A stretch of 64,000 bases of DNA from assembly GCF_010093815.1 (NCBI RefSeq), contig NW_022985576.1, positions 1 through 64,000 on the forward strand, read 5' to 3'. The DNA comes from Pseudovirgaria hyperparasitica. Taxonomy: Eukaryota > Ascomycota > Dothideomycetes > Acrospermales > Acrospermaceae. The number at the start of each line of letters is the position of its first letter. Position 1 is the first letter of the stretch. Of this stretch, positions 3,000 to 63,000 are shown in pieces. The translations under genes and the position numbers were made by a program. The notes below the pieces were generated by a model, which was given only the letters and a program-made list of their open reading frames with translations, did not search any database and was not told where the DNA came from.

Positions 3000-5900
3000 T
3001 AGATATATTCTTTACTAGAGAATAGACATTACTATATAGTAGAGCCCTTTATTAAGACCACTAAGAAGTTTACTCTACTACTAATATTTATTATAAGTCT
3101 TTATATACTATTATATATCTCTATATATCTCTATCTACTAATACTTATCTTTAATTCTTCTAAGAGTCCCTTCACTACCTCTATAATCTATCTTATTATA
3201 AGTAGTAGTAATTATATATATCCTAGTATTCGGGTTATTAACTACTTATATATATTAGTAATATCTATCTCCTCTCTACTAGAGTATTTAGTCTTATATA
3301 AGAAACTTAAGATAGTTAGTTATAAAGGCCTTATATATATAATTAATTAGATTAGTTAGTCTCTTAAGTATAGTAAGATACTTTATAATTCTTTACTACT
3401 TATTACTATATTTATTAGTTAGAGATAACTTAATAGTAGTATAGTTAAGTATCTCTATTAAGTAATCCTTCTATAGATAGACTTAATTAATAATATTCCT
3501 AGTATATCTATATATAGAGCTATATCTATAGACTTATCTAGATTAAAAGTAGAGATATCTAGTAGTTCTTCTCTCTTATATATCTACAAGATACTATTAG
3601 TAACTATATTATACTTTCTAGATATACATCTAATTATAAAATTCTATAGTTAAATCTATATAAGCTATCTTATAATAAGTACCCCTAGTAAGTTAGTTAT
3701 AGTATAGTTAATTAAAGTAATAAAAGTATTTATATCTATTTCTATAATAAAGTATATACTATAGAGATATTAGTAGAACTTTTATAGTATATAGAGAAGA
3801 GCTTAGTACTCTAGCTTTATAGTATTATATTCTCTCTTATCTTTTAACTATATCTCTCTATTATACTATAATAGTTAATACTTCTAGTTCTTATTCTTCT
3901 ATATTAGTATAGCTCTCTAGCTAATATTACTTAAGTCTATGGCTAGAATAATATCTTCTATATCTATTCTATACTATAGTATTATTAGTACTAGAATAGT
4001 TATTAGAGCTTTCTTTAGTATATCTATTAAGGTCTATTCTATAGATATCTATTACTATACTAACTTATTCTTTAATAGTATAAATAGTAGTAATACTATA
4101 ACTATATATTCTAGAATCTATATATAGAAATATATATATATACTAAGAAAGGTCTATATATTTATTATATTCTTATAGGACTTCTATTCTCTAATAGTTA
4201 TAATTTTCTTATTACTTAGTCGTTTCCCTTTACTATTATAGATATATTCTATAATATTAGTAGCTTTAATATACTATTAAGTCTTCTTACTACTTAGAGT
4301 ATATCTAGTATAGTTAATATCTATAAGGACCTTATTAATATTAAGTAAATACTCTAGAATATATCTATAGATTCCGGGTAGTACTTCTTTAGAGCTATAC
4401 TTTATAGTAGAGTCTTTAATATCTAAGTTATCTAGAAATAGTAGAGCCCTCTCTAGAATATATTTCTATATAATAGTTAATATAATTCTAATAAACTAGA
4501 CTACTAAATTAGTAGCTCTCTAAGGTAATATTATACTATATAGTAACTCTAGAGATATTATAAAACCTATAAGGTCTTAGTAATATTCTACTAGTAGAAT
4601 CTAGTTATATTCTAAGAAGAAATTAATAAATATTAAGATAGCTATCTCTATAAAGTACTCTAAGAATTCTTTATATAATAGTAGTATAGCTATATCTTAA
4701 ATTATAATATAGTTAATTTTAGTTACTAAGTTAATTAACCTATAGTCTTACTTCTTATTAGCTTTCTTCTTCTTCTCTATAAGGAAGTATATATTCTAAT
4801 ATAGACTATTATAGAGTTTAAGCCTTCTACTATTAAGACGTTCTTTTAGAATTATTAGTATCTTTCTATAGAGAGCTCTTAGAATATTAAAGTTCTTAGC
4901 TTACTACGCCTTATACTCTATTATTTAGATCTTCTATAGAGGTACTATCTTCTTATTAAACTTACTAAGATAGAAGAACTTCTATACTAGTACCTTCTCT
5001 TAATATAATAGAATTATATATAGAAGGTTAAGCTCTATAGAGCGTAGTTCTATTCTAATCTTTAGCTAGCTTATATATAGAGGTATAAGGCGTGTCTCTA
5101 GAGAGAGAGATACTCTATAGAGTTTAATTAATCTATTAAAGATATTAAGCCCTAAGTATATAGCTAGAAGGAGTATCTATTATATAATTACTTACTTATA
5201 CTAGTCTAGATACCCTAGTAGGTTTTAGAGGACCTTCTAGTAGGCCCTAGAGCTATTAATAGAATATATTTTAACTCTCTTTCTTTTAGATATAGTAGCT
5301 ATACTAAATACTTTTAATACTTCTAGTAAGTATTACTACTAGAGACTAGTAGAGCCTACTATAAGATACTCTATTATTATACTCTACTTATATATAAAGG
5401 TAGTATATCTAGCTACTATAACTAGGGTAGCTAAGTTATCTTTTCTTAATAACTAAATAATATTTTTAGGCCGGATTTCTTTAGAAAGTATTCCTATATA
5501 ACTTATCTCTATATCTATATAAAAATATAGCCTATCCCCTTTATTAGTAGCCTTACTATCTTCCATTTAGTATAGATTATTAATTAAGGGTAGCCCTTAA
5601 CTAATAATCTAGCTTAACTCTAGCTTCTAGAGATCTACTCTACTATATAGTTAGTCTCTAGTAGTAGAATTATTCTCTATTTCTAAGACTAATATATACT
5701 TATCTAGGCTAGTTTTAAAGATTATATTATAGCATGGTTATTTTATTCTTTCTCTTTAGCTCTCTCTTCTTATATCTTATAGACCTTTCTAGCTATAAAG
5801 TTAGAGGCGCTCTTCTTAAATACTATATAATATAAGTTACTATTAAGACTTAGTAGTTTACTAATAGTAATATTTATAGTTATTCTAAGAATATATACTA

Positions 5901-6200
5901 GGTATACTCTACTAGCTTCTATACCTAGTTATTATCTCTTATATAGATAGTTATTAAGCTTAACTTCTTAAATATATAATTTTTAACTAGGGTTTAGGTT
6001 ATCCCCTTTATCTATCTTATCTCTAAGTATTATTAGCTTCTATCTAGATATCTCTTAATTACTATTCTTTTTACTATCTTCTTATTCCTTAATAATTCTT
6101 ATATATTATTCTTTATATATCCCTTAGAGATAAGGTATTTTTCTCTTTCTAGTATAATTAGATATATTCTTTATAATCTCTCTCTCTCTAAGATTATAAG
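3000..6200 (-). mobile_element. Ty3/Gypsy LTR retrotransposon fossil (pol region)
   Basis: On the minus strand, 4,760 down to 4,380 translates to a reverse transcriptase resembling a common fungal Gypsy family. Short matches include DYRLINLVTKIN, the EFLEYF...INFFLEYN block (family: EFSEEFAGC..SLIDFFSGYD) and an ALLFLDNLDIK block near the catalytic site. The element is broken many times and old, heavily altered by RIP. LTRs and exact ends were not found, so the limits given cover only the part whose orientation I trust. A solo LINE-type palindrome (5,574-5,610) sits in its upstream part. Confidence 0.55.
5574..5610. repeat. Solo copy of the TTATTAGTTAAGGG palindrome
   Basis: Arms of 17 bases around a TAG core (5,591-5,593) pair with one mismatch, explicable as one G-to-A change. 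The central 31 bases match the palindromes that bracket the LINE coding blocks elsewhere in the window, yet no LINE sequence is visible on either side. Here the paired arms extend further, to AGATTATT...AATAATCT. Confidence 0.8.
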
Positions 6201-8739
6201 TACTATAGATTCTATAGAGGCTATCTCTTTATAAATATATCTATTACTAGCTATATTAAAGCGTCTATAAAACTCTATATATCTATTCTTTCTATCTCTA
6301 GATAGTATAATTTCTTCTTCTAAGTTACTATCTACTAAAGTCTTATAGTAGCTTATTACTATTTTAGTACTAATACTATATATTAGTATTCTCTATAAAG
6401 TATTAATATTTATTATAGATATAGAGATCTTTACTCTCTCTCTATACTAATCTAAGCTATTCTAAACTATTATTATATAGTTTTAAATTATTTATAGAGT
6501 AGTCTAAGAACTCGCTAAAAAAGATAATAATAGAATTTTCTTACTATTTATTCTAAAGTATTCTCTAAATACTTATACTCTATTAATATTTAGTAGTCTA
6601 TTCTTAATATATTCTACTATTTCTAGGTATCTATATATTAGATAATTCTCTCTATATATAATATAAATAATTAGTCTCTAGAGTCTATTCTAAATTATAA
6701 TAGAGTTCTAGATACTTAGAGTAGAGATATACTCTCTCTTCTAGATATAGTTTTATAGATAAATCTAAGCTAATTCTATAGATATAACTTATACTTAAGG
6801 GTATACTAAAAGGTTAAGTCTTTATATCTATAAGTTAATAATAGCTAAAAGTAATTCTAGTTTATACTTTCTAAGAGATAGAAATATAGAATTAGAAGTA
6901 AAGTAAGATTTTATCTTAATTAATATAAGGTCTAGTTTACTAAACCTCTCTACTATCTTATTAAACTTAACTAATTCTAGTATAATATAAGTCTTAACTA
7001 TAGAGGAGTTACTAAACTTATTAGCCTACTATTCTCTATATAACTATTCTTCTAAGTTAGTCTTCTTTCCTTCTATCTTTAACTTTTAGTATATAGCTAT
7101 AGCTAGTTTTTATATAGCTAAGTACTTATTAATCTAAGCTAGTTTCTTAATTACTCTAGCTTTCTATAATATAAAACTATAGATAGTTATCTAGTTATAG
7201 CTATATATATCTATTATAAGCTAATATTTCTCTATAGTTTATACTTTAAGACTATTAGATAGGCCCTTAAGAAAGAGTTCTATTTATAAATATAGGCTTA
7301 GACTTTCTTTAGTAGCTAGTTTCTCTATAATAATATAATACTATAAATAATATATAGAGAGAGAGTATAACTAGTCTACCTTAACTATTTCTATATATTT
7401 CTATATAAAGTAGATAGTTCTCTCTTTTAGTACTAAGTTAAATAGAGAGAATTCCTTAAGTAGCTCTTTATATAATATAGTCTACTCTTACTTTTAAAAA
7501 CTAACTATTTCTTTAATAGTAAGTTAGAGGTAGTCTTTATAGTATAATAGTAGAGATATTATTTTCTTATCTAGTAGAACCTTATAGTTAGTATATATAT
7601 CTTTATACTTTTAAAGAAAGGTTATAATATTTATTCCTTTAAAGTAATCTAGAGCGAGTATAGATAGAGAGACTACTCTCTCTTATTATATAAATACTAT
7701 AAAGAAGTTAAGTATCTCTCTATAAGTTACTAGGTTCTTACTCTAAGTTCTAGTTATACTATTACTAATAGTAGATATACTAATAGAGATACTAGAGATA
7801 GATTACTAGTTAAGAGATTATTTTAACTAAGAGTTAATCTAACACGTCTATCTATAATACCTACTATTTCTTTATTATATTAACTAGTTCTCTTATAAGA
7901 TAAGTTATTACTATTATCTTTCTTAATATAAGATTTATAATACTCTACTTATATTAATATTTATATATAAGGTATTTCTAGAGTAGTACGTTTATAGACC
8001 TTTATTTATAAGTAGTAGCTATAGTAATATTAGAAGGACTATACTATTTACTTCTAAGAACTCCATTATTATTATTCTTATTACTCTATTTAGTCTCTTT
8101 TTATATTCTATTTCTATAAAGTTCTTTTAAGTTATATTATTCTATAGACTAGTATATATATACTTTTAGTAGTAATTTCTAAGAGACTAGCTTCTAGTAA
8201 TTCTAGAGTTTTTAGCTTCTAGACTTATAGCTTTAATCTAGTAGATCTAGATTATCTTAGTAGTTACTTAATATATCTTCTCTATATCAGTTTAGAAGTT
8301 CTAATCTCTCTCTATAAGTTTAAAGTCTAGATATAATCTCTAAAATTATAGTAAGCTATTCTTAGGCGTGTCCCTTTAAAGAAAGAGATTTACTTCTTAA
8401 ATAAGATAGATATAATAATATTATATCTATCTTCTCTATATACTATAAGTACTCTTTAACCTTATAACTACTTATTAGTTCTCTTATATAATAGAATAGG
8501 TCTATATAATACTTATAATTAATTCCTTAATAACTATATCTATTAATTAATACCTATAGAAGTCTATAAATATAAAGAAAAGTAAAATACTTAAATATTA
8601 GTAATAGGAGTATATGTCTATCCTAAATAAGTAGAGAAACGTCCTTCTTAAGTATATAAATATACCATGTAATTAAGCTAGAGATATATATATATAGAGC
8701 TATAGATACGGCCTTCTATAATAGTCTTAAGAGAGAATA
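6201..8739. other. AT-rich decayed DNA, unassigned
   Basis: CA and TG remain nearly absent and no frame is recognisable on either strand. It may be the gag side of the Gypsy fossil on its left, since that element reads leftwards. The change to a CG-containing sequence at about 8.70-8.76 kb marks the start of the plus-strand LINE. I see no LTR-like ends here. Confidence 0.45.
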
Positions 8740-11700: not shown

Positions 11701-12892
11701 TAACGACCTAGCTATAGACTAGGCCGTATAGATACTCCTATAAATATACTAGAATGCGAGAAATAAACACGTCCTATACTAAATATACCGGCCCCCGGAA
11801 GTAAAGGGGATTCCTTAAGTATGGGAAAGTAGATAAGACGCCCGAAGGCTATATAGACGCGTATACTATATAAGAATACCCGAGTTATAGAAAGAATAGA
11901 AGGAAGCGATATAATAACGCGATAAAGTCCTCTATAACGAAAGGCGTAAATAGTGGCGTATAATTACTAGTTAATAGATACGACACGTAATAGGGCTATG
12001 GCGCATGGCAAAATAGGCTAAGGGCGTAGACACTCCGACACCCCCGCCACTTATACCTCCCCTAATATATTAGGGGAGAATATACTCCACGGGCCTTAAG
12101 AAAACTAAGGCTCTACGGGAGGCTATATTCCCTCTCCCGGAACTAGTAGACCTATTAGACGTTTACGGCGCCGAATACCTATATATAGTAGACATCCCCG
12201 AAGAAGTTACGGAGGAGGATATACTTAATATTATTAAGATACTTCTAAATAAGAAAGTACCCGGACTAGATAGAATTCTAAATTAATACCTAAAAAGTAC
12301 TATAAAAGTAACTCTACCGCTTATTACTTATATATTCTAAGCATGCGTTACGTAGGGGTACCACCCCTAGAGCTTCTAAGTCGTCTATACTATTATACTC
12401 CCGAAACTAGGAAAGAGCCCTAACTCCCTAAAGGGATAGAGACTAATCACCCTTCTCTTCTATCTAGATAAGATACTAGAGACTACGATAGCGAAGAAGA
12501 TAAGCACCGTAGTATAGGAATATAATCTCCTCTCTCCGAACTAGAAGGTAAAGATAGGTAGCTCCCTAATAATAGCTATCTAATATATTATTAAAGTCGT
12601 CTAGGCCGTATAGAAATAGAGACGGGTAGTATCGCTCCTCTCCCTCGATATGGCCGGAGCGTTTAATAAGGTAAACTATATAAGACTTATTTATAACCTC
12701 CGGATGAGACGAATACTAGAATAGATTATACGCTTTATATAGTTATTCCTTATAGGAAGAATAACTTAGATATATATCTCTAGGTACTAGAGCGAATATA
12801 AAGAGACGGTATACGGCATCCTATAAGGGAGTACTATCTCTCTAATCCTATTCCTCTTCTTTATAGTAGACCTTCTTTAAGGAATAAAGTAT
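8740..12892 (+). mobile_element. Tad-like LINE, plus copy, 5' part (interrupted)
   Basis: Non-LTR retrotransposon in plus orientation. ORF1 has CCHC zinc knuckles near 10,480-10,590 (CFNC..., KCG.C...H....C spacing). ORF2 has an apurinic-type endonuclease motif LLGDFN near 11,310-11,330 and the N-terminal part of the reverse transcriptase at 12,130-12,300 (PLPELVDLLDVYGAEYLYI, then the PGPDGI-type block, here PGLDRI). Many Gln and Trp codons read as stops, as RIP would give. It is cut at 12,892 by the minus-strand LINE; the 3' part resumes after that insertion. Its first 1.2 kb (8.74-9.97 kb) has no match in the other copies and lacks the 5' palindrome, so it is a different subfamily. The 5' end is placed by composition only. 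Confidence 0.8.
12872..12892 (+). repeat. Target-site duplication, left copy
   Basis: About 21 bases ending in GGAATAAAGTAT recur at 18,205-18,225 with only C/T and G/A differences. They flank the minus-strand LINE and belong to the reverse transcriptase reading frame of the interrupted plus-strand LINE. Confidence 0.75.
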
Positions 12893-13127
12893 AATAATAA
12901 TAATAATATTAGTAAACTAGGTAGAGTACCACTCTATAGGCGCATGCCTCCTCTAGTCTAAGCTACTATATAAGAAGAAACCTACGAATAGGAAAAACTC
13001 CCTTATATCCATGACTACGCTCTGTCTATCCTCTCGTTCTTTTATATATATAGCCCTAGGGGCTACCTATGGGCCTATAGCCTATATTATAATAGTTTAC
13101 CCTTAGGTAGCACGTATAGGTGCGGAG

Positions 13128-13160
13128 ATTATTAGTTAAGGGCTACCCTTAACTAATAAT
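13128..13160. repeat. LINE 3' palindrome (minus copy)
   Basis: Fifteen-base arms around CTA pair perfectly. Read on the minus strand, the ORF2 frame ends with ATT ATT AGT TAA, so the apparent stop lies inside the left arm of the hairpin. Confidence 0.85.
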
Positions 13161-16100
13161 TGCGGTTCTCCCGGGGTTCTTCCGACGTATACCGGGGTTC
13201 TTCTAGTATATATCGGGCTTCTTCCGGTATATATACGCGGGTCTACTAGAACTAGGGGAGAGGAAGGTATACGAGCATCTATCGGGCGACGTCCTTAGGG
13301 TACTTATTAAGCTATCGCGTGATATCGGAGGTCCTTATTATACGGATAAGGGCTTATCTTAGGGTATAGAGGCTAGAGCACGTCGCGAGGTAGTAGCGTA
13401 TTATACCTCTCCGGCCGTAGTCCTCGCACTAGAGAGATATATCTAGGACGCCTCTCTAGTAGAGGTAATATAGAAGACCTATAGCGCCTATTCGGGCTTA
13501 GAGGAGTATAGATACTTAGGCCTTCGTTAGCCCTTTATATATCTATTTACTTAGTTCCTTCTAAGGCCCTCGGATCTATTCTAGATACCTATTCTATTAG
13601 GAGGCCTACTAGGCTTTAAGTATCTCCCTCTATTTATTCTAGATCTATAACCGTATAACGCGGCTAAGCTCCTTAGGGCTCTATTAGCTTAGGATAGCAT
13701 CCGGGTTATTTTAAACCTCCTATACGGTCTAGCTCGAGTCCGCCTCTATATGGTATTTATATTATACTTGAGTTCGTCCTATAGTAGAGAGGGCCTAGTA
13801 ATATATGCAGATACGTGTACGTAGTACGACGAAGGTATATACCCTATCTTCTCTACGTTCTTATACTTATTATTTAGTAAAGTATATAAGTCTCTATATC
13901 TAGTAGAAGTCCTATATACTCGTTACGTTTATCTCGCGTTAGAGGAGCGTTATATTAGTAGCTTTATATATACCGGAGATAAGGCGGAGTATACGGTTTT
14001 ATATAGACTTAAGCTTTGCCCGCCGAGCTTATATAAGGGCTATATACTAGTACTCGTGTCCGTATATAAAGGCTAGGCGTACTAGAGAGACGTATAGCTA
14101 TCTCGCCTTATCCTAGACTATTCCCTATATAGATACCGTAATCCGGCGTATAGCGGTTTCTATCTAGAGGGCTCTAGAGACGGCGTGTACCATCTATGGT
14201 CCCTATTTTAGCTTATTATCGATTATAACGCCGAGTGCTCGTATACTCTATACTAGTGGTTCTATAAAGGCGTCGATTTAGGGGCGATGTACTCTCTCCC
14301 TAGTAGCCTATCCTCTATAGTAGTTAATAAAGTATATAAGCTAGTATTTTTTAGGTGTGAATTTTACTCCGTGGCGCTTTACCTACTAGACGCATTTCTT
14401 ATGGTCTCGTTCGAGTCGTATATATATTCTACTAGTACTACTATCGACCGTAAGAAGGTATATATTATCCGCGTATCCGACTACCTCTATATATTCTATT
14501 CCCTAAAGGAGATCTACTATAAAGAAGAGGAAGAGGATCGGGGAGATAGTGCTCCCTTATAGGATGCCGTATACTATCTCCTTATATTCGCTTTGGTATC
14601 TAGGGATATATATTTAAGTAGTCCTTTACGCGAGGAAGGACTATATAAATTATATAATCTACTTAGGTATTCGCCTTATCCGGAGGTTATAGATAAGTCT
14701 TATATAGTTTACCTTATTAAACGCCCCTACTATGTCTAGGGAGAGTAGTATAACGACTCGTCCTTATTTCTATATAGTCTAGATAACCTCGAGGATATAT
14801 TAAATGGCTATAATTAGGGAGCTTTCTACCTTCGCCTTCTGGTTTACTAGAAGAAGGCCGTATACCTATACTACTATACTTATCTTCTTAGTAATTATAG
14901 CTTCTAGTACCTTACTAAGGTAGAAGAGGAGGGCGATCGGCCTCTATCCCTTCAGCGTGTTTAGGCTCTTCCCTAGTTTTAGGAGTATAACTATATATAT
15001 AGTTTAGAAGCTCTATAGGTGGTATTCTATACGGGCGCACGCTCGGAATATATAGCCTATAATCGGTAAGGTCACCTATATAGTCCTCTTAAGGCATTGA
15101 TTCGGAATTCTATCTAGCCCGGGCGCTTTATCGTTCGGGAGTGTCTTAATAGCGCCGAGTATATCGTCGTCCGTGATTTCCCTAGGGATACTTATAGCTT
15201 CCGGGTATTCCGTGCTATTAATATTAAATAGGTCTACGGGTTCTAGGAGAGGGAATATAATCTCTTATAGGATCTCTATTTTCTCGAGGCTTGTAGAGTA
15301 TATCTTTTCTTAATATATAAGAGGGGGTATAAGTGGTGTAGGTGTCGGGGAGGCGGTGCTTTTGGCCCATTTTACTATATACCATAGTCTAGTGGTATTA
15401 CGTGTGTATCTATCTATAACTATATACTACTATTTACATCGCTCGTTGCGGAGGACCTTATCTCGTTATCTTCTCGCCTCTCTCTATTTATTCTACGCTT
15501 TAGGTATATGGTTATAGTATACGCGTGTATATAATCTCTAGACTTCTCGTCTATACTCTCGTACTTAAGATATACTTTTCGGGTCTAGGGGTCTATATAT
15601 TTGGTACGGCACGTGTTTATCTCTTACTCCCTAGTATACCTATAGGAGTATATTCACGGCCTGGTCGATGGCCGGGCCATTAGATATATCGACTATAGAC
15701 GGGTCTAGAATCGTTAATTCCAGGTCCTTTAGGTACTTTTTTTAGTTAGTATCCTTCTATAGCTATCGCCCTCATTAGTCTTAAGGGGTAGATACGTCTA
15801 TTACGGTCTCTATATATTTATAGTCGGAGTCTATCTATATAAGGCTTGGGCGGTAGTATTAAGTTCTATTATAAATATGTCTAGTGGCTAGGGTAAGGTC
15901 GAGTATAGATCCGCCCTTATCTTATTTATGTTTTCGCTAGGTAATCTATTCTACTAGTATAAGAAGGTATAGGAAGCCGTGGTATTGGGTGCGTAGTTCT
16001 CTAGCTCGAAGCTCTTCGCGGGTGACGGTTAGTCCACCCTACTAGCTATAATAGAGGTTAAAGTCTTCTAGGAGGATGTGTTATCCTAGCTCGGTAGTGC

Positions 16101-17916
16101 CCTTAAGCATGTTATCCGCCTAAAGCGATCGGTTCTAATTATATATATTATGTATATGGAGGGGTCCGATATTCGTCTAGAGGTATAGTATTATCTAGAG
16201 GTTATCCCGTTTAGTATATAACTATAATAAGAGTAGGATAGACTTATAGACATGGAAGAGGACTCTCCTCTCCGGTCCTAGGGGGTATATTATATAATAT
16301 CCTAGGTGTGTTATTAGTTTATTCATCTGGTAGTATTTATATAGCTCCTATATAGCGAGTATTATAGCTCCGGTCTCCTCGAGGAGTATCGCCTAGTTCT
16401 TATGTTTATACTATATGTTTGCCTATATAATTAGGAGTATATCTTGGTCTCTTATTAGGTGCTAGGGAATATATAGGCCTATATATTTATTTCTCTAAGA
16501 CGCGACTATCCTCGTACGGCGGCGGCCTTAGTAATTCCTTAGGGTCGTTCTATTATTAGCTTTCTTAGGACGGTTTACTATTTCTAACCGCTTCCTTATA
16601 AGGAGGTAGTCTATAGTAGTAGTATTATAGTAAAGAGAGGAACGGTAGTAGGTCGCATCGTTTATAGCTACCTTACTCCCTTTATCCGGATTAAGTAGAT
16701 ATATTTAGTAACCTATTTGCGTTTCGCGCACGTAGCTAACTACGATAGGTGCTTACCGTCGTAGTTAGAGTACTTTACTATATCCCTATCCCTCTAGCCC
16801 TCTCCTCGTGTCCTATAGGGGCACTTCTAGGTACTATATTCTTATCGATACTACCTATACCTAGTCTTTTAGGAGTACCGCTATACCGTATACCCGTATC
16901 CCTAATAGTTAAAGTACTATATTATCGCCTATGCTCTATCCCATGGTTCCGCTATAAGAAGCTCCCCTTCCGCTAGGAATCCCTCTTACGTAATTTAATA
17001 CGCGAGGGCGGGGTCCTTAAGCTCTACTATTATAGTAGAGTATACCTTTAATCTAGTTTTAATCCCTTATATATTCTTCTACTATACTCTTACGATCTTA
17101 ATTCCTAGGTATTTTCGCTCGTTTAACTATTCTATCCGTATAATATCCTCTTCTCTAATAACCTATCCGCTTATAGGTATAGAGTATATCTATATCGGGT
17201 ATGTGGCCGCCCTAATAGAGGCGCCTAGAAAGATACTACTAATCGCGTTCGGATCGCGTGAGATAGTCTACTACGCGATATTCGTTATCGTGGTAAGTAC
17301 TACTCCTCCTAGCATGAGTTTAGCGGCGACGACGTTTAACTATATTCTCTTTTATTTATTAATCTTACTTACTATATCCTTTAGGGATGCTTACTAGACC
17401 TATACTAGGGTGTCCTTATCCTAGATTACGACGCGTATACTATACGCCATATTACCGGTCCGGGGGGCCCGTGGTATAGCCTCCGGTGTTACTACTATTT
17501 ATACCTATATACTAGGGCGCTTACCTTAAGTAAGTTCCTCCTGGATTCTACGTAGGCTAGCCTCTATTCGGTCGAGTCTACCCTCCGGTCCTCCTAGTTA
17601 TATCTTCTTCTTCTTCTCCGTAATTCCCTTTAGATTCTAGATAAGGTCCTAGAATATATATAGAAGGGTCTTCTAGCCCTCTCCGGCTTCCTTCTCTATA
17701 CATACTACCTAGTAGTTAATATAATCTAGAAGGGTTTCCCCTCTCGGGGTCCCCTTTATTCCGTCTATCTATAGCGGCGTGCGCCTTTAGATGTGTTCTA
17801 CGTTTTAGATAGGTATATAGTTACCCTTAGTAATATTGCTATATAGCCTTTTCTATTATACTAGTAGGGGTATATCCGGTATATACCGGGGTATATTAGT
17901 GCCTAAGGCCGCCATA

Positions 17917-17949
17917 TTTATTAGTTAAGGGCTACCCTTAACTAATAAA
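17917..17949. repeat. LINE 5' palindrome next to ORF1 ATG
   Basis: Perfect arms of 15 bases around CTA. On the minus strand the hairpin ends one base before an ATG at 17,915-17,913 that opens the ORF1 frame (MAALGTNIP...). Confidence 0.85.
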
Positions 17950-18204
17950 AGGGGGTTGGTATATCGGCGTTCTAGTAGCGTGGTCCGTGCCTCTATCTCC
18001 GTAAGGATTTTAAGAGGGTATATATATATCTTTACACGGCGATAACGTCTTGGTTTCGACGCTGCACGTACGTGCGTGTAGTAGTAGTTAGTATACTCGG
18101 TATACTCTATCGATTAAGGTGTGTATCTCGCTGTATTACCCCGAATGGACTAAGTTAGCCTCTTAGGGATGTAAAAGAAGTTTAAATATTAATAATAAAG
18201 TAAA

Positions 18205-19719
18205 CTTCTCGAAGGAATAAAGTATATAGAGATAGTCGGATACGCTAATAATATATATCTCCTAGCTATTAATAATAATACTAACCGAATATATAGACGA
18301 CTAGAATAGGACTATAAGAGGTGCCTCTAGTAGGTAAAACGCTATAGAGTAATGTTCGCCCCGGAGAAATACTAGCTTATATACTTTATTAACCATTAAG
18401 GGAAATAGGTAACTAGAGAAGGTGAATAATGCCCCCGAATTAACGTATTTAACGAACTACTAGCATAAAGTATACACGCGCTCGGAGTTATACTAGATAG
18501 TAAGCTTAAATAGGGACTATAAGTGGTATACACCGTCTCTAGGGCCCTCTAGATAGAAGCCGCTATATAATGGATTATAGCCTCCACGTGGGGAACCGCC
18601 TAGAATAAGGCACGCTAGCTATATATATCTATAGCATGACCCGCCTTCACGTATAGACACGAGTACTAGTACACGGCCCTTATATAGATTAGGCGAATAA
18701 AGCTCGAATCTATATAGAACCGTATACTCCGTCTTATATTAGGCGTATATAAAGCTACTAACACGGTGCTACTACGACGCGAGATAGACGTTATAAGTAT
18801 ATATAACTTCTACTAGATATAGAGGGTAGTATACTTTACTAAATAATAAGTATAGAAACGCATAGGAAATATAGAATATACTTTCGCCATACTACGTATA
18901 CGAATTAGTATATATTACTATATACTCCTATATATAGGCCGGAATTAAATACGGTATAGGTGCTTAATAGAAGCTAACTCTAGCTAAGTAGTATAAGAAG
19001 TCCGAGATAACCCGGACGCTTTTCTAAACTAGTAGAGCCTTTAAGAACTTATAAAAAATATACGGTCGTGGACTTAAGATAAGTAGAAAGAGGCACTCCG
19101 TGCCTACTAGACCTTCTAGTAGAATAGGTACCTAGAGTAGATTTAAGGGCTATAGAAGGAACTAAGTAAATAGATATATAAAGGGCTAACGAAAGCCTAA
19201 GTATCTATACTTATCTAAGCCCGAACGGGCGCTATAGGACTCCTATACTATATCTATAAGAGAGGCGTTCCCGATACCTCCCTATAGTATAAGGTATATA
19301 GCCGGAGAGGTATAATACGCTACTATCTAGCTATATACCCTAACCTCTATATATAACGGTAATAGCTTATTCATGTTACGAAGACTTTAGATATCGTATA
19401 ATGGCTTAATAAGTACCCTAAGGACGTCTCCTAATAGATACTTATATATCTACTACTCCTCTAGTACTAGTAGACCTAGAAATATATACTAGAAGAGACC
19501 CGGTATACGCTGGTAGTAACCCGATATATACCGGAAGAACCCTAGGAGAACCCCGATTATTAGTTAAGGGCAGCCCTTAACTAATAACCTCCGCACCTAT
19601 ACGTACTACCTAAGGGTAAAATAACGGTAATATAGGCTATAGACTAATAGGCGTACCCTATAGCTATATACTTAAGACGAAATAGAGGTTTAATGAGATG
19701 TAGTTATAGATATAAGGAA
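18205..19719 (+). mobile_element. Plus-strand LINE, 3' part, ends at scaffold gap
   Basis: This continues the interrupted plus-strand LINE. The frame resumes at the target duplication (LLEGIKY) and runs straight into the reverse transcriptase active-site block, IVGYANN, where the usual YADD has become YANN by G-to-A change. The rest of ORF2 follows to the 3' palindrome at 19,556-19,588. The sequence stops at the run of Ns inside the 3' untranslated region. Bases 16,599-19,719 recur at 19,730-22,850, so this piece and 21,336-22,850 are probably the same locus represented twice. Confidence 0.75.
19556..19588. repeat. LINE 3' palindrome with unchanged CAG core
   Basis: Core reads CAG here while the duplicated copy at 22,687 reads TAG. 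This shows the pre-RIP form of the palindrome, GGGCAGCCC. Confidence 0.85.
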
Positions 19720-19729
19720 NNNNNNNNNN
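19720..19729. other. Assembly gap (10 Ns)
   Basis: Ten undetermined bases. The sequence right of the gap restarts at the sequence found 3,131 bases earlier, which suggests two overlapping contigs scaffolded without being merged. Confidence 0.98.
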
Positions 19730-21047
19730 TAAGGAGGTAGTCTATAGTAGTAGTATTATAGTAAAGAGAGGAACGGTAGTAGGTCGCATCGTTTATAGCT
19801 ACCTTACTCCCTTTATCCGGATTAAGTAGATATATTTAGTAACCTATTTGCGTTTCGCGCACGTAGCTAACTACGATAGGTGCTTACCGTCGTAGTTAGA
19901 GTACTTTACTATATCCCTATCCCTCTAGCCCTCTCCTCGTGTCCTATAGGGGCACTTCTAGGTACTATATTCTTATCGATACTACCTATACCTAGTCTTT
20001 TAGGAGTACCGCTATACCGTATACCCGTATCCCTAATAGTTAAAGTACTATATTATCGCCTATGCTCTATCCCATGGTTCCGCTATAAGAAGCTCCCCTT
20101 CCGCTAGGAATCCCTCTTACGTAATTTAATACGCGAGGGCGGGGTCCTTAAGCTCTACTATTATAGTAGAGTATACCTTTAATCTAGTTTTAATCCCTTA
20201 TATATTCTTCTACTATACTCTTACGATCTTAATTCCTAGGTATTTTCGCTCGTTTAACTATTCTATCCGTATAATATCCTCTTCTCTAATAACCTATCCG
20301 CTTATAGGTATAGAGTATATCTATATCGGGTATGTGGCCGCCCTAATAGAGGCGCCTAGAAAGATACTACTAATCGCGTTCGGATCGCGTGAGATAGTCT
20401 ACTACGCGATATTCGTTATCGTGGTAAGTACTACTCCTCCTAGCATGAGTTTAGCGGCGACGACGTTTAACTATATTCTCTTTTATTTATTAATCTTACT
20501 TACTATATCCTTTAGGGATGCTTACTAGACCTATACTAGGGTGTCCTTATCCTAGATTACGACGCGTATACTATACGCCATATTACCGGTCCGGGGGGCC
20601 CGTGGTATAGCCTCCGGTGTTACTACTATTTATACCTATATACTAGGGCGCTTACCTTAAGTAAGTTCCTCCTGGATTCTACGTAGGCTAGCCTCTATTC
20701 GGTCGAGTCTACCCTCCGGTCCTCCTAGTTATATCTTCTTCTTCTTCTCCGTAATTCCCTTTAGATTCTAGATAAGGTCCTAGAATATATATAGAAGGGT
20801 CTTCTAGCCCTCTCCGGCTTCCTTCTCTATACATACTACCTAGTAGTTAATATAATCTAGAAGGGTTTCCCCTCTCGGGGTCCCCTTTATTCCGTCTATC
20901 TATAGCGGCGTGCGCCTTTAGATGTGTTCTACGTTTTAGATAGGTATATAGTTACCCTTAGTAATATTGCTATATAGCCTTTTCTATTATACTAGTAGGG
21001 GTATATCCGGTATATACCGGGGTATATTAGTGCCTAAGGCCGCCATA

Positions 21048-21080
21048 TTTATTAGTTAAGGGCTACCCTTAACTAATAAA
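21048..21080. repeat. LINE 5' palindrome (duplicated block)
   Basis: Identical to 17,917-17,949 at offset 3,131; probably the same locus counted twice. Confidence 0.8.
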
Positions 21081-21335
21081 AGGGGGTTGGTATATCGGCG
21101 TTCTAGTAGCGTGGTCCGTGCCTCTATCTCCGTAAGGATTTTAAGAGGGTATATATATATCTTTACACGGCGATAACGTCTTGGTTTCGACGCTGCACGT
21201 ACGTGCGTGTAGTAGTAGTTAGTATACTCGGTATACTCTATCGATTAAGGTGTGTATCTCGCTGTATTACCCCGAATGGACTAAGTTAGCCTCTTAGGGA
21301 TGTAAAAGAAGTTTAAATATTAATAATAAAGTAAA

Positions 21336-22963
21336 CTTCTCGAAGGAATAAAGTATATAGAGATAGTCGGATACGCTAATAATATATATCTCCTAGCTAT
21401 TAATAATAATACTAACCGAATATATAGACGACTAGAATAGGACTATAAGAGGTGCCTCTAGTAGGTAAAACGCTATAGAGTAATGTTCGCCCCGGAGAAA
21501 TACTAGCTTATATACTTTATTAACCATTAAGGGAAATAGGTAACTAGAGAAGGTAAATAATGCCCCCGAATTAACGTATTTAACGAACTACTAGCATAAA
21601 GTATACACGCGCTCGGAGTTATACTAGATAGTAAGCTTAAATAGGGACTATAAGTGGTATACACCGTCTCTAGGGCCCTCTAGATAGAAGCCGCTATATA
21701 ATGGATTATAGCCTCCACGTGGGGAACCGCCTAGAATAAGGCACGCTAGCTATATATATCTATAGCATGACCCGCCTTCACGTATAGACACGAGTACTAG
21801 TACACGGCCCTTATATAGATTAGGCGAATAAAGCTCGAATCTATATAGAACCGTATACTCCGTCTTATATTAGGCGTATATAAAGCTACTAACACGGTGC
21901 TACTACGACGCGAGATAGACGTTATAAGTATATATAACTTCTACTAGATATAGAGGGTAGTATACTTTACTAAATAATAAGTATAGAAACGCATAGGAAA
22001 TATAGAATATACTTTCGCCATACTACGTATACGAATTAGTATATATTACTATATACTCCTATATATAGGCCGGAATTAAATACGGTATAGGTGCTTAATA
22101 GAAGCTAACTCTAGCTAAGTAGTATAAGAAGTCCGAGATAACCCGGACGCTTTTCTAAACTAGTAGAGCCTTTAAGAACTTATAAAAAATATACGGTCGT
22201 GGACTTAAGATAAGTAGAAAGAGGCACTCCGTGCCTACTAGACCTTCTAGTAGAATAGGTACCTAGAGTAGATTTAAGGGCTATAGAAGGAACTAAGTAA
22301 ATAGATATATAAAGGGCTAACGAAAGCCTAAGTATCTATACTTATCTAAGCCCGAACGGGCGCTATAGGACTCCTATACTATATCTATAAGAGAGGCGTT
22401 CCCGATACCTCCCTATAGTATAAGGTATATAGCCGGAGAGGTATAATACGCTACTATCTAGCTATATACCCTAACCTCTATATATAACGGTAATAGCTTA
22501 TTCATGTTACGAAGACTTTAGATATCGTATAATGGCTTAATAAGTACCCTAAGGACGTCTCCTAATAGATACTTATATATCTACTACTCCTCTAGTACTA
22601 GTAGACCTAGAAATATATACTAGAAGAGACCCGGTATACGCTGGTAGTAACCCGATATATACCGGAAGAACCCTAGGAGAACCCCGATTATTAGTTAAGG
22701 GTAGCCCTTAACTAATAACCTCCGTACCTATACGTGCTATCTAAGGGTAAAATAACGGTAATATAGGCTATAGACTAATAGGCGTACTCTATAGCTATAT
22801 ACTTAAGACGAAATAGAGGTTTAACGAGATATAGTTATAGATATAAGGAAGTTTTTCTCTATAGGGTTTCTTCTTATATAGTAGCTTAGACTAGAGGAGG
22901 CATAGGCCTATAGAGTACTACTCTACCTAGTTATATAATATTATTATTATTATTATTATAGAA
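21336..22963 (+). mobile_element. Plus-strand LINE 3' part with complete 3' end
   Basis: Same sequence as 18,205-19,719 up to 22,850, then the remaining 3' untranslated region and an (ATT)n tail ending at about 22,963. Joined to 8,740-12,892 it gives an original element of about 5.8 kb. The active-site block again reads YANN. After the 3' palindrome (22,687-22,719) come about 245 non-coding bases before the tail. The junction reads ATTATAG, like the other LINE tails here. Confidence 0.8.
22687..22719. repeat. LINE 3' palindrome (duplicated block)
   Basis: Matches 19,556-19,588 apart from a TAG core and neighbouring transitions. Confidence 0.8.
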
Positions 22964-25102
22964 AGAAAAAAGAAAAAGAAGAAGAAGAAGAGAATTAAAT
23001 ACTAAAGAAAAAGATCTAGAGACTAGTATATTCTAATAGATCTATAGATTAGTCTAATAGAGCCCTAATACTAATACTAGAGAAATACCGCCTATACTAT
23101 AATAGAAGATTAGTAAGAGAATATAACTAGAGTCTAGAATTAAACCTATATTTAATTCTACTAGACTACTATATCTATTATCTAGATAATTATCTAGAAG
23201 ATAATAGTACTAGAAATATAGTTAGTAATTATTTATCTAGAGAGTCTAAATAGTCTTATATAGAAAGTAGACTAGCTACTTATAAAGACTATAAAGCCTT
23301 TATAGTTTTTAGAATCTAGATAAGGTTCTTATAGATATCTAGTCTAAACTAATTATTAGCTAAGTATTATAATATAGAACTAGAAGAGAAAAGAACTTAT
23401 ACTCTAGTATTAGTTAAATAGATCTATACTATATAAGTAATATAAGTAATCTCTAGTCTAAAATACTCGGTTAATAGTTATTATAATAAGGAATTCTAAG
23501 TAACTTATAAGTTCTAATAATTTATCTTTCTTAAGGTATAATAAATATAAGAGTAAGTTTAATTTAACTAGGTAAACTAGTAGAGTCTAACATGAATAAT
23601 ATAGAGTCTAGTACTTACTACTTAGTTAGTATAGTCCTTACTAGCTAGGGTATAGCCCTAGTAGTAAATAATATTATTTATCTATAGAATCTAAGTATTA
23701 GTAACTAGACTCTAACTAGATAAGAAAGAAGAATCTAGTCTTATAATAGAGAATAATAAGGTTATTAGAGTCTAGAAAAATAGAAGAAAAACTATATCTT
23801 TATACCTAGAACTCTTAAAATTATAAATAGGTCTTTATAAATAGAATATTATAAATAAGATATCTATAATATATAAGTATCTATTTATATATAACTCTAA
23901 AATATATAAATAACCCTTATTTATATACTCTTAATAGATAAGTAAATAGTTCTAGTATATATAATAATAGATACTCTATTAACTAAGAAGTACCTAGTAT
24001 AGATAGATTAATATAAAAATAGTTCTTAATTAGAGAACTAAACCCTTTCTTCTATATACTTAATAATAGATCTAAGATCTAAGAAGATATAGAGCTAAAT
24101 CAAAGTAGATATATAGATAGTATAGCTAGTAGAATTTTACTAGACTTACTATATAAATATATATATTAAGTCTAAGTAGTCTAGCTTATAGAGAGTACTA
24201 TATATAGTAATAATAGAGATTACTACTATACTATAGTAATAATTATTACTACTAAGGTAAGAATAAATACTATTATATTAGAAGTTATTTATAGAAGAAT
24301 AGTTATTTATCTAGTACTAGAGATATAGATATAAAAGAAGCTACTAACTTAGAAATTAAACTATCTTCTATAAATAACCTATAATAGATTTAATAGATAG
24401 ATTCTTTTAATAGAAGATATATATACTATAATCTAATAGTAGATATTAAGTCTACTTACTAAGGCCTATATTAGAGAGTATTATATATAATAATAACTAT
24501 TACTATAAATTAATAGTAATTACTATTATAATAAGTAAGTATAGAAGAATAGCTTTAAAAATAGTTTCCTAGAAGGCTAGTAGGAATAGACTAGATAATA
24601 CTTACTTATAAGTAGTCTTCTACTAGTATAGACTCTAGTAATAAATAAGTAGAGAGAGAGAGTAGTATTAAGGGTAGACTCTAGATATACTTAACGCTAG
24701 TATACTATATCTATACTATTACTATTTTCTTACTTAATAAGACTAAGTAAGTCTCTTTTTAATAGTATACTTTCTTCTATATCTTAAGAAAGCTAAGTAG
24801 ACTATAGCTTTCTCTCTTATTAAACTTATTATATTCTATAAATACTCTTATATCTATATATATGTTATATTTCTATAATATATATAATATTAAAATTAAA
24901 ATTAATATTAAAGCTATAGATAAAGAATTTAAAGTTAAAAAAATCCTAGAGTCTAGAATTAGTAATAGAATACTAGAATATCTAATTAAGTAGAAAGACT
25001 ATAGATATAAATTAAATACTTAGAAACCTAGAGAATATTTAATAAACTACTAGTAACTATTATAGAAGTTCTATTAAATAAATCTAGATTTATCTAGTTC
25101 TC
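22964..25102. other. AT-rich decayed DNA, unassigned
   Basis: It starts with a short purine run (GAAAGAAAAAAGAAAAAGAA), then gives CA/TG-depleted sequence without a recognisable frame. It is the left flank of the Gypsy insertion and ends with the TTCTC target duplication at 25,098-25,102. Probably an older repeat. Confidence 0.5.
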
Positions 25103-32519: not shown

Positions 32520-32884
32520 TATACTAAGCTAAGAATTATTAAAATCTAAAGAAGAATTTAGAACCTTCTTAGTATACTAAATACTTAGAATAAGAATTCT
32601 AATTAGAGAACCTTAGTAGAACTATATAGATTCTTTAAATCTAATCTCTAGAGATTATTTTATAGTAATTAATTTAAACTTATACTAATATATTTACTAC
32701 TTTACTTATCTACTAGCTAGTTACTATTTATACTCTATTAATACTTATTATAAATCTACTTATACTCTTCTAAGTCTTCTAAGTACTCTTATCTTTAGAA
32801 AAGCTAGAATACTCTATATAATAGACTACTTTAGAGATAAGCTATACTCTTATTAGAAAGGTTTATTATAATATATATATATAT
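32520..32884. other. AT-rich decayed DNA, unassigned
   Basis: Right flank of the Gypsy insertion and continuation of the sequence left of 25,098. Contains an AT dinucleotide run at about 32,869-32,892. No frame recognised. Confidence 0.5.
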
Positions 32885-33109
32885 ATATATATACTATTTA
32901 AGAGTAAAATAATAATAATAAAGACTATAAACTAATAGATATACTCTATTACTATATACTTAAGAAGAAATAAAGATTTAATAAGATATAATTATTAGAA
33001 TAAGAGAGGTTTTCTCTCTTAGATTTCTTTTTATATAGTATCTTAGACTAGAGAAGATATAGATCTATAGAATACTACTCTATCTAGTTATATAATAATT
33101 ATTATTATA
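32885..33109 (+). mobile_element. LINE 3' end scrap
   Basis: About 225 bases match the last part of the LINE 3' untranslated region base for base apart from RIP-type changes: the CTTAAGAAGAAATA block, the block equivalent to AGTAGCTTAGACTAGAGGAG, and CTATCTAGTTATATAATAATT leading into an (ATT)n tail. The copy is 5'-truncated, as is common for target-primed insertions, and the tail joins flanking DNA as ATTATAG. Confidence 0.8.
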
Positions 33110-33410
33110 GATACTATAAGATAGTAGACTCTATATACTAACTATCTATATTAAAAGAATTAAATCTTAAAGTAACTACTTTAATAGTAGAGTATACTAC
33201 TTATAAAGAGCTAGATACTAGATATAGAATAGTAGACTATATACTTAACTTATATATCTAATAGATACTTAGATTTATTTCTTAATTATATAGTTTATAC
33301 GTAGAGTAGCTAATAAGTAGATAGTCTAGCTTAGCTTAAACTATTTTAAGGTACTATTTATACTACCCGTAACATAGCTAATACTCTCTAACAAGGTATA
33401 TATATTATAT
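33110..33410. other. Edge of the AT-rich tract
   Basis: CA/TG-poor sequence that ends abruptly near 33.40-33.42 kb, where CG, CA and TG return. No gene or element recognised. Confidence 0.6.
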
Positions 33411-44972: not shown

Positions 44973-45005
44973 ATTATTAGTTAAGGGCTACCCTTAACTA
45001 ATAAT
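44973..45005. repeat. LINE 3' palindrome
   Basis: Perfect 15-base arms around CTA; 4.79 kb from the matching 5' palindrome and in the same orientation. Confidence 0.88.
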
Positions 45006-49760: not shown

Positions 49761-49793
49761 TTTATTAGTTAAGGGCTACCCTTAACTAATAAA
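49761..49793. repeat. LINE 5' palindrome
   Basis: Perfect arms around CTA, one base from the apparent ORF1 ATG on the minus strand. Confidence 0.88.
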
Positions 49794-54996: not shown

Positions 54997-55029
54997 GTTA
55001 TTAGTTAAGGGCTACTCTTAACTAATAAT
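54997..55029. repeat. LINE 3' palindrome, one arm altered
   Basis: Core CTA; the right arm reads CTCTTAACT, one transition from the consensus. Confidence 0.8.
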
Positions 55030-59770: not shown

Positions 59771-59801
59771 TTATTAGTTAAGGGCTACCCTTAACTAATA
59801 A
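59771..59801. repeat. LINE 5' palindrome
   Basis: Perfect 14-base arms around CTA, kept intact although surrounding sequence is strongly decayed. Confidence 0.85.
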
Positions 59802-60040: not shown

Positions 60041-63000
60041 AATAATAATAATAATATTATATAACTAGGTAGAGTAGTACTCTATAGGCCTATGCCTTCT
60101 CTAGTCTAAGCCACTATATAAGAAGAAACCCCATAGGGAAAAACTTCCTTATGTCTATAACTACATCTCGTTAAACCTCTATTTCGTCTTAAGTATATAG
60201 CTATAGGGTACGCCTATTAGTCTATAGCCTATATTACTATTATTTCGCCCTTAGGTAGCACGTGTAGATGCGGAGGTTATTAGTTAAGGGCTGCCCTTAA
60301 CTAATAATTGGGGTTCTCCCGGGGTTCTTCCGGTATATATTAGGTTACTACCGGCGTATACCGGGTCTCTTCCGGTATATATTTCTAGGTCCACTAGTAC
60401 TAGAGGAGTGGTAGATATGTAAGTATCTATTAGGAGACGTCCTTAGGGTACTTATTAAGCTATCGTATAATATCTAAAGTCTTTATAATGTGGATAAGCC
60501 ATTACCGTTATATATAGAGGTTAGGGTATATAGCTAGATAGTGGCGTATTATACCTCTCCGGCCGTACGCCTTATACCATAGGGAGATATCAGGAATACC
60601 TCTCTTATAGATATAGTATAGGAGTCCTATAGCGCCCGTTCGGGCTTAGATAAGTATAGATACTTAGGCTTTCGTCAGCCCTTTATATATCTATTTACTC
60701 GGTTCCTTCTATAGCCCTCGAATCTACTCTAGATACCTATTCTACTAGGAGGTCTAGTAGGCACGGAGTGCCTCTTTCTACTTATCTTAAGTCTATAACC
60801 GCATGTTTTTTACGAGTTCTTAAAGGCTCTACTAGTCTAGGAGAGCGTCCGGGTTATCTCGGACTTCTTATACTACTTAGCTAGAGTCGGTTTCTATTAA
60901 TCACCTATACTATATTTGATTCCGGCCTATATATAGGAGTGCGTGGTAATATATACTAATTTATACACGTAGCGCGGCGAAAGTATATTCTACGTTTCCT
61001 ATATATTCCTATACTTATTATTTAGTAAAGTATACCACCCTCTATATCTAGTAGAAGTTATATATACTTATAACGTCTATCTCGCGTCGTAGTAGCACCG
61101 TATTAGTAGCTTTATATACGCCTAATATAAGACGGAGTATACGGTTCTATATGGATTTAAGCTTTATTCGCCTAGTCTATATAAGGGCCGTATACTAGTA
61201 CTCGTGTCTATACGTAAAGGCGGGTCGTGCTATAGATATATATAGCTAGCGTACCTTATCCCGGGCGGTTCCCCACGTAGAGACTATAATCTATTATATA
61301 GCGGCTTCTATCTAGAGGGCCCTAGAGACGGCGTATACCACTTATAGTCCCTATTTAAGCTTGCTATCTAGTATGACTCTAAGCGCGCGCATGCTTTATA
61401 CTAGTAGTTCGTTAAACGCGTCGATTCGGGGGCGTCGTTCGCCTTCTCTAGTTACCTATTTCCCTTAACGGTTAATAAAGTGCATAAGCTGGTATTTCTC
61501 CGGGGCGAACTTTATTCCGTGGCGTTTTACCTACTAGAGGCACCTCTCGTGGTTCTATTCTAGTCGTCTATACGTTCGGTTAGTATTATTATTAATAGCT
61601 AGGAGGTATATATTATTAGCGTATCCGACTACCTCTATATACTTTATTCCTTAAAGAAGGTCTACCATAAAGAAGAGGAATAGAATCAGAGAGATAGTGC
61701 TCCCTTATAGGATGCCATATACCATCTCTTTATATTCGCTCTAGTACCTAGGAATATATATCTAAGTTATTCTTCCTATAAGGAATAACTATATAAAGCG
61801 TATAATCTATTCTAGTATTCGTCTTATCTAGAGGTTATAAATAAGTCTTATATAGTTTACCTTATTAAACGCTCCGGCTATATCGAGGGAGAGGAGCGAT
61901 ACTACCCGTCCCTATTTCTATGCGGCCTAGACGACTTTAATAATATATTAGATAGCTATTATTAGGGAGCTATCTATCTTTACCTTCTAGTTCGGAGGGA
62001 GGAGATTATATTCCTATACCGCGCTACTTATCTTCTTCACTACTATAGCCTCTAGTATCTTATCTAGGTAGGAGAGAAGGGCGATTAGTCTCTATCCCTT
62101 TAGAGAGTTAGGGCTCTTTCCTAGTTTCGGGAGTATAATAGTATAGATAACTCGGAAGCTCTAGGGGTGGTATCCCTACGTGACGTATGCTTAGAATATA
62201 TAAGTAATAAGCGGTAGGGTCGCTTTTATAGTGCTTTTTAGACATCGATTTAGAATTCCATCTGGTCCGGGTGCTTTATTATTTAGGAGTGTCTTAATAA
62301 TATTAAGTATATCCTCCTCCGTAACTTCTTTAGGGATATCTACTATATATAGATATTCGGCGCCATAAACGTCTAATAGGTCTACTAGTTCCGGGAGAGG
62401 GAACATGGCCTCCCGTAGGGCCTTAGTTTTCTTAAGGCTCGTGGAGTATATTCTCCCCTAATATATTAGGGGAGGCATAAGTAGCGGGGGTGTCGGAGTA
62501 TCTACGCCCTTAGCCTATTTCGCTATACGCCATAGCCCTATTACGTATCGTATCTATTAGCTAGTAATTATACGCTACTATTTACGCCTTTCGTTACGGA
62601 GGACTTTATCGCGTTATTATATTACTTTCTTCTATTCTTCCTACGACTCGGGTATTCTCATACGGTATACGCGTATATATAGCCTTCGGGCGTCTTATCT
62701 ACTTTCCCGTACTTAAGGAATCCCCTTTACTTCCGGGGGCCGGTATATTTAGTATAGTACGTGTTTATTTCTCGCCTTCTAGTATATTTATAGGAGTATC
62801 TATACGGCCTAGTCTATAGCTAGGTCGTTAGATATATCGACTATAGAGGGATCTAGAATCGCCGATTCTAGGTCCTTTAGGTACTTTTCCTAGTCGGTGT
62901 CCTTCTATATCTATTATCCCCGTTATTTATTCGGGGTATACACGTTTATTACGGTTTCTATATATTCATGGTCGGAATCCGTCTATACCTAGCTTAGGCG

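Follow-up and report, generated by a model that had tools for sequence, protein, structure and literature searches.

A 31-base palindrome, here called P, brackets the coding block of a long interspersed nuclear element (LINE), a retrotransposon without long terminal repeats (LTRs), in the fungus Pseudovirgaria hyperparasitica, and a Ty3-type LTR element of this genome, unrelated to the LINE, has the same 31 bases at its coding edges. The LINE was found in a window that comprises 64,000 nucleotides (positions 1 to 64,000 of contig NW_022985576.1 in assembly GCF_010093815.1), and all genome-wide counts refer to the 35.0-Mb assembly of 59 contigs, of which that of the window is one. Loci labelled L0xx are stretches drawn from the same genome, chosen and not random. 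It is quite possible, if short of probable, that P acts in cis as an RNA hairpin at the coding edges of the two retroelement families, with parts in translation control and RNA recognition, and that it was exchanged between them by template switching.

In the window, the sense form of P at the 5' site of the LINE is TTATTAGTTAAGGG-TAG-CCCTTAACTAATAA, and P was defined as the hairpin TTATTAGTTAAGGG-NNN-CCCTTAACTAATAA, with 30 arm bases and an unpaired centre base. With at most two mismatches the arm TTATTAGTTAAGGG has 23 matches in the window, where 3.34 are expected and 100 shuffles gave at most 9; 22 of the 23 form 11 hairpins, in nine of which both arms match exactly. The window copies are strongly marked by repeat-induced point mutation (RIP), which causes transitions only. 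Less mutated copies (in L039, L040 and L031) bear the arms TTATTAGTCAAGGG / CCCTTGACTAATAA, which RIP of CpA turns into the window form, and the RIPed arms contain neither CpA nor TpG. The base composition of the LINE at 12.9 kb is itself the signature of RIP, with TpA/ApT of 1.66 and (CpA+TpG)/(ApC+GpT) of 0.25, compared with 0.76 and 1.24 in the GC-richer stretch at 34-40 kb. Since no closed open reading frame (ORF) of at least 250 amino acids from an ATG is listed in the window, reading frames were inferred by comparison, and because RIP makes only transitions, both frames and conservation were judged by transversions.

The initial annotation proposed that the same palindrome occurs at both ends of the LINE coding block, in direct orientation and about 4.8 kb apart, and this is what the sequence contains. 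For the 12.9-kb LINE the two copies lie on the minus strand at 17918-17948 and 13129-13159, the 5' to 3' spacing is 4789 bp here and 4788 and 4773 bp in the LINEs at 44.7 and 54.8 kb, and the copies claimed for the 3' sides of the 60.0-kb LINE and the plus-strand copy are present at 60277 and 19557. Two window copies come in addition to those listed earlier, one in a tandem duplicate (21049) and one in the Ty3-type element (5577). The 5' copy does stand just upstream of the ATG of ORF1, at a distance of two bases and not of one (17918 versus 17915). The stop codon of ORF2 does lie inside the 3' copy, as TAG at 13155-13153 in the context AAT TAT TAG, which reads GAT TAT TAG in less mutated copies. 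The TAA of ATT ATT AGT TAA, earlier taken for this stop, is in the wrong frame, and the corresponding triplet is CGA or CAA in L033, L039 and L040.

Whether ORF1 starts and ORF2 stops elsewhere was judged from fixed transversions by codon position between LINE family A (three copies) and family B (three copies). Between about 17.7 and 16.5 kb the excess of third-position transversions falls in frame mod 3 = 2, which fits the ATG at 17915-17913, and between about 16.4 and 13.2 kb, up to the TAG in the 3' copy of P, it falls in frame mod 3 = 0, so that periodicity backs both frames except in the first 150 nucleotides of ORF1. Among families A, B and D the gaps in the roughly 600 nucleotides after the 5' copy are multiples of three, some of which may be alignment ends. 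In three LINE families two nucleotides separate P from the ATG; copies of A, B and D retain ATGGCGGCC after P and differ in the two-base spacer (AT, CC and TC), and the end of P followed by N and CATGGCGGCCTTRG has 31 genomic matches. The placement of P at the ATG side and the stop side of the LINE is thus backed by RIP-proof codon periodicity together with gaps in multiples of three.

That the element is a LINE follows from its layout and its reverse transcriptase domain. On the minus strand of the 12.9-kb LINE an RVT_1 match lies in the frame of ORF2, and an Exo_endo_phos_2 match in the same reverse transcriptase (RT) frame has an E value of 0.0065 and 16.8 bits, under its cut-off of 27.4 bits. 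The RT of the relative in L033, where a (TTA)n tail is seen, matches L1 ORF2p and R2 proteins in PDB. The 12.9-kb LINE is nested without LTRs and, in the one insertion examined, is flanked by an imperfect target-site duplication of about 27 bp. Fungal Tad-type LINEs have two ORFs, an endonuclease, which is a probable one in the LINE described here, a reverse transcriptase and a fungal host, and we know of no bracketing palindrome in that group. P as the target site, or as a target duplication, of the LINE was considered and rejected on the basis of this insertion, which sits in the RT region of another LINE with an ordinary duplication, and in which about 235 and 250 bases separate the palindromes from the ends of the element.

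The genome holds 426 exact copies of P, and 529 with at most three mismatches to a RIP-tolerant pattern. Junctions at the 5' LINE site number 192 (at most three mismatches) and those of the LTR element 123 (at most two), and the 3' LINE flank, searched in RIP-tolerant form with at most three mismatches and with P not required, has 204 matches. About 519 junctions of four classes thus compare with 529 palindromes, a balance that is approximate, as the thresholds differ. In the window and the loci examined, L001-L008 (repeats or RT hits) being excluded, 70 of 71 rows with P belong to the four classes: 34 at the LINE 3' site, 17 at the LINE 5' site, 10 at the pol side and nine at the 3' site of the LTR element. 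Two places occur twice, so that 69 rows are distinct. As far as counted, P is nearly confined to the coding edges of the LINE and of the Ty3-type element.

The sole row outside the four classes is a chimera in L031 (C47:6500-16400), where, at 4510-4560, 21 nucleotides of the LINE 5' end and an un-RIPed P adjoin RT sequence that belongs to another Ty3-type family. The joint lies at P or within its first bases, and a 9-base inverted repeat flanks the unit.

In both elements the copies of P often come in pairs. Pairing was scored for 78 of the 100 listed 5' LINE sites (192 in total) and 98 of the 100 listed 3' sites (204 in total), and at least 54 of the 78 have a 3' partner on the same strand 4-9 kb downstream, 52 of them at 4733-4822 bp and two at 5.4 and 7.9 kb. 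For the pol side of the LTR element, 37 of 39 sites (out of 41 listed) have a 3' partner; the distance is 7275-7302 bp for 34 of them and 12.7-15.2 kb for three, which may be chance pairs. Among the genome-wide matches listed, the spacings of P fall in two main classes, of about 4.78 and 7.30 kb.

This second host of P is an LTR element that measures about 11.4 kb; in one copy its direct repeats, of 364 bp, are seen 11 kb from each other. It has an RT_RNaseH match over the cut-off, a match to the zinc-binding Integrase_H2C2 just under it and a weak match to an RT-bearing gypsy-type ORF; we take it to be of Ty3 type partly from general knowledge of the family. Read in sense, it consists of an LTR, about 500 bp, a degenerate P, the gag frame, P, the pol frame and a third long frame, at whose end stands a P with a stop codon in that frame, followed by 150 bp and the LTR. 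The third frame (L013 1037-4000, minus strand, contig C1) is long and gave no Pfam match; its last part is covered by no second family, and stop counts there favour frame 0 over frame 1 and not clearly over frame 2. The pol frame is in phase with an ATG position 10 nucleotides after the middle P, and this ATG is intact in L059. LINE and LTR-element sites have in common the 31 bp and a few further bases only: seven loci of the 7.3-kb class were examined and match the LINE at P only, and a blastp comparison of the LINE frames with those of the LTR element gave nothing convincing, the best E value being 0.18 over 12 residues at the palindrome. The last frames of both elements end in PDY-stop in less mutated copies (L039, L040 and L051), which is a weak lead. 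Recognition by the LINE's own proteins, suggested when the palindrome was first noticed, is less likely in its exclusive form, because an unrelated LTR element bears the same 31 bp at its coding edges.

Conservation between families was measured as purine/pyrimidine class at the 30 arm positions, with transitions ignored, and compared with windows in the flanks. The arms show no difference at the 3' LINE site (families A, B and C), none at the 5' LINE site (A, B and D) and none at the pol side (two LTR-element families). Equally free of differences are 20 of 422, 13 of 570 and 169 of 909 flank windows, respectively, where families C and D are represented by one copy each and the pol-side flank includes a stretch that is absent from the window copy. 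The product of the three fractions is about 2e-4, on the assumption that the sites are independent and that the flanks are alike. Within families, the proposed comparison of P retention with flank decay turned out differently, since flank and P are kept about alike. Retention there was therefore rejected as a sign of selection, 14 of the first 17 flank matches listed adjoining an exact P, and it says little in any case, because the RIPed form is RIP-proof.

The unpaired centre base is the only position of P that differs at both LINE sites. It is A in 6 of 6 rows of family A and 26 of 27 of family B at the 3' LINE site and in all 10 rows of family A at the 5' site; it is T in the single family C row at the 3' site, in 6 of 7 rows of families B and D at the 5' site and in all 18 rows of the LTR element, with two further rows unclassed. 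A swap of A and T at the centre is equivalent to P turned round, and it looks like inversion of the hairpin in place. Small inversions at hairpins in plastid genomes, as described in the accessible part of that literature, would be a parallel.

In prediction the hairpin is strong. Unmutated P folds at -18.1 kcal/mol (z -6.06), the RIPed form at -15.8 kcal/mol (z -5.62) and the degenerate gag copy at -10.6 kcal/mol, and P is present in the minimum-energy fold of all four 149-nucleotide contexts. In the 5' LINE context the stem extends, so that the A and U of the AUG are unpaired beside P and its G lies in an outer stem, and in the 3' context of the LTR element a longer stem has P at its tip. 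One subfamily at the 3' LINE site has the form TCGAGGG...CCCTTGA, in which pairing is kept through G-U and in the sense RNA only; this variant is probably a single event.

The reading of P as an RNA hairpin can be given a mechanistic form, in which we infer from sequence its action as RNA, the binding protein and the route of transfer. The hairpin would slow or gate the entry of ribosomes at the first AUG, and at the other end it would mark the end of translation. An RNA-binding protein that handles the RNAs of both elements, Gag-like or of the host, might bind it and could then take the RNA out of translation and pass it on to packaging or reverse transcription. From one family to another, P would probably have passed by template switching of the reverse transcriptase.

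Several observations weigh against this reading. Conservation at any single site is modest, in that 2-19% of the flank windows do as well, and when families are compared pairwise at the 3' LINE site, 32, 56 and 48 of the 422 flank windows are also free of differences; moreover, the test between families covers three of the four sites, as the window copy of the LTR element runs off the window at the 3' one. The conserved RNA hairpin proposed at start and stop is present and strongly foldable in prediction, but the compensatory stem changes that were to support it were not seen, the arms hardly varying between families. In the first 150-nucleotide bin after the ATG of ORF1 (17883-17733) the transversions number 6, 4 and 2 by frame, with 2 of 12 in the third position of ORF1, and the first 180 nucleotides of ORF1 show no third-position excess in a separate family comparison either. 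Because unmutated P has stop codons in two of its three frames and is open in one, a stop within P is automatic wherever P lies at the end of an ORF; the adjoining of P to the LINE ATG is not automatic. In the LTR element the periodicity of gag and of pol falls in one frame, in which unmutated P has no stop; the middle copy may therefore be part of a continuous gag-pol frame, perhaps even a translated part, instead of preceding a start. The copy before gag may likewise be within an open frame, and it is the copy at this side, where an RNA signal would be expected, that is degenerate. Any palindrome is equally a dyad in DNA. Finally, so stable a hairpin beside an AUG should hinder scanning, and the element would need some relief from it.

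A somewhat unlikely alternative is that P has no function and spreads as a palindrome by template switching or recombination, being kept only where it falls at an ORF edge or in its one open frame. It would account for the brevity of the likeness between LINE and LTR-element sites, for stops inside P, which two stop-containing frames make automatic, for the L031 joint between LINE 5' end plus P and a gypsy fragment of another family, and for centre-base differences of the kind that palindrome inversion gives. Yet a free spreader should also reach other places, and one row in 71 does so while the junctions nearly use up the palindromes; nor would it explain arms that lack purine/pyrimidine changes at three sites while their flanks change, or a P two nucleotides from the ATG in three LINE families. 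Unlikely, too, is a dyad in DNA that is bound by a homodimeric protein with a role in retroelement transcription, insulation or chromatin. The dyad is perfect, its centre base is neutral to orientation, the 5' LINE site is about 250 bp from the 5' end of the element and one LTR-element site is about 150 bp from the 3' LTR, all of which agrees with such a role, but a place between gag and pol is ill-suited to a promoter, the symmetry of the DNA is lost in the G-U variant, and some 30 fully conserved bases are, by general knowledge, long for a dimer site.

Pairing of the 5' and 3' copies of P in one RNA, or in two RNAs, for start-stop closure or genome dimerisation is an improbable explanation. 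Both copies have the same self-complementary arms and could form a long duplex, and dimerisation of Ty3 RNA through a short palindrome is reported in the accessible text of PMC11381356; against this, the local hairpin is predicted in four of four contexts, in folds of 149 nucleotides that cannot show long-range pairing, and the P before gag, nearest to the usual place of dimerisation, is the degenerate one. The idea that the apparent conservation is a by-product of RIP, with a RIPed form that looks frozen for want of CpA while its surroundings change, is barely credible. It draws on the strong RIP of the window copies, on RIPed arms that have lost CpA and TpG, and on the 204 RIP-tolerant flank matches with exact P beside 14 of the first 17 listed. 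It is largely refuted by the transversion test, in which the arms remain unchanged with transitions ignored, and the original arms are alike in the little-RIPed loci L039, L040 and L031.

Features of the window that concern P and its host elements. Boundaries of the LINE are good to a few bases.
Feature	Position	Strand	Remarks
LINE (non-LTR retrotransposon), RIPed	12894..18199	-	inserted in plus-strand copy of same LINE
ORF1	16500..17915	-	starts ATG GCG GCC at 17915; 3' limit approximate; many RIP stops
ORF2 (reverse transcriptase, probable endonuclease)	13153..16450	-	stop TAG 13155-13153; 5' limit approximate
5' palindrome, 12.9-kb LINE	17918..17948	-	two bases upstream of ORF1 ATG; arm pair folds at -15.8 kcal/mol
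3' palindrome, 12.9-kb LINE	13129..13159	-	holds ORF2 stop; about 235 bases from LINE 3' end
3' palindrome, 44.7-kb LINE	44974..45004	-	
5' palindrome, 44.7-kb LINE	49762..49792	-	
3' palindrome, 54.8-kb LINE	54998..55028	-	one arm mismatch
5' palindrome, 54.8-kb LINE	59771..59801	-	
3' palindrome, 60.0-kb LINE	60277..60307	-	5' part of LINE beyond window
3' palindrome, plus-strand LINE copy hosting 12.9-kb insertion	19557..19587	+	
5' palindrome, tandem duplicate of 16599-19719	21049..21079	-	
3' palindrome, tandem duplicate of 16599-19719	22688..22718	+	
P with one mismatch, old heavily RIPed Ty3-type LTR element	5577..5607	-	5' side of pol
Degenerate palindrome, same LTR element as 5577 copy	7803..7833	-	seven mismatches; near gag start

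The tandem duplication 16599-19719 / 19730-22850, which spans the end of the 12.9-kb LINE and the host copy, is 3.1 kb long with 99.74% identity; it is the most alike pair of all listed repeats above 200 bp, and either very recent or an assembly effect. At 32882-33117 lies a heavily RIPed 235-bp piece of the LINE 3' end that stops a few bases short of the expected position of the palindrome. Elsewhere in the genome, L029 (C36:49000-58900), whose GC content is 50% and which lacks P, has at 1597-5949 on the minus strand an uninterrupted ORF of 1451 amino acids that includes a reverse-transcriptase domain. L037 contains a masked stretch of N at about 1195-1980, and the LINE in L010 contains a stretch that is stop-free in all frames, probably also N.

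No description of the bracketing arrangement was found in the literature searched, which left most subscription journals outside its reach, and the un-RIPed arm, searched as a text string in papers, gave no match. Rfam gave no match for window positions 12000-23000, and P has no match in viral_contigs and genome_contigs, which are collections of viruses and prokaryotes and so say little. The nearest likeness is the GalEa Copia Conserved Hairpin Site of filamentous ascomycetes, whose extended form, according to the accessible part of PMC5445492, is common to distant families in five species, so that there, too, a hairpin is kept in fungal retroelements and even across distant families. As that part of the source describes it (PMC5445492), the GalEa hairpin lies after the 5' LTR of Copia elements, at the position of the primer site, and has a less conserved loop, whereas P belongs to a LINE and a Ty3-type element and lies at the edges of their ORFs. 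The place directly after a 5' LTR is not that of P, the LINE being without LTRs and the nearest copy in the LTR element being about 500 bp off and degenerate. The dimerisation palindromes of yeast Ty3 RNA, for which candidates in the 5' UTR (untranslated region) and gag were tested, are self-complementary like P; in the accessible text they are 6 nucleotides long and near the 5' end, in contrast to 31 bp at start and stop and in common with a LINE (PMC11381356). The 3' stem-loops of stringent-type LINEs, recognised by RT, resemble P in the 3' part of the LINE, but P lies at the ORF2 stop, about 235 nucleotides from the end, and is repeated before ORF1 (PMC5135761, as far as its accessible part goes).

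For RIPed genomes these results suggest that questions about conserved signals should be put through transversions, as a trivial cause can make a RIPed motif look frozen. Non-LTR and LTR retrotransposons are, to our knowledge, normally thought to have separate RNA signals. An identical 31-base P at coding edges in both classes would suggest that they have a step of recognition in common, or that control modules are exchanged between classes of retroelements. A rather unlikely proposition is that a LINE and an LTR retrotransposon in the same nucleus mark their coding edges with a common hairpin, which a single trans-acting factor reads, so that two elements with different routes of replication have a shared switch from translation to replication, or one of them uses the machinery of the other.

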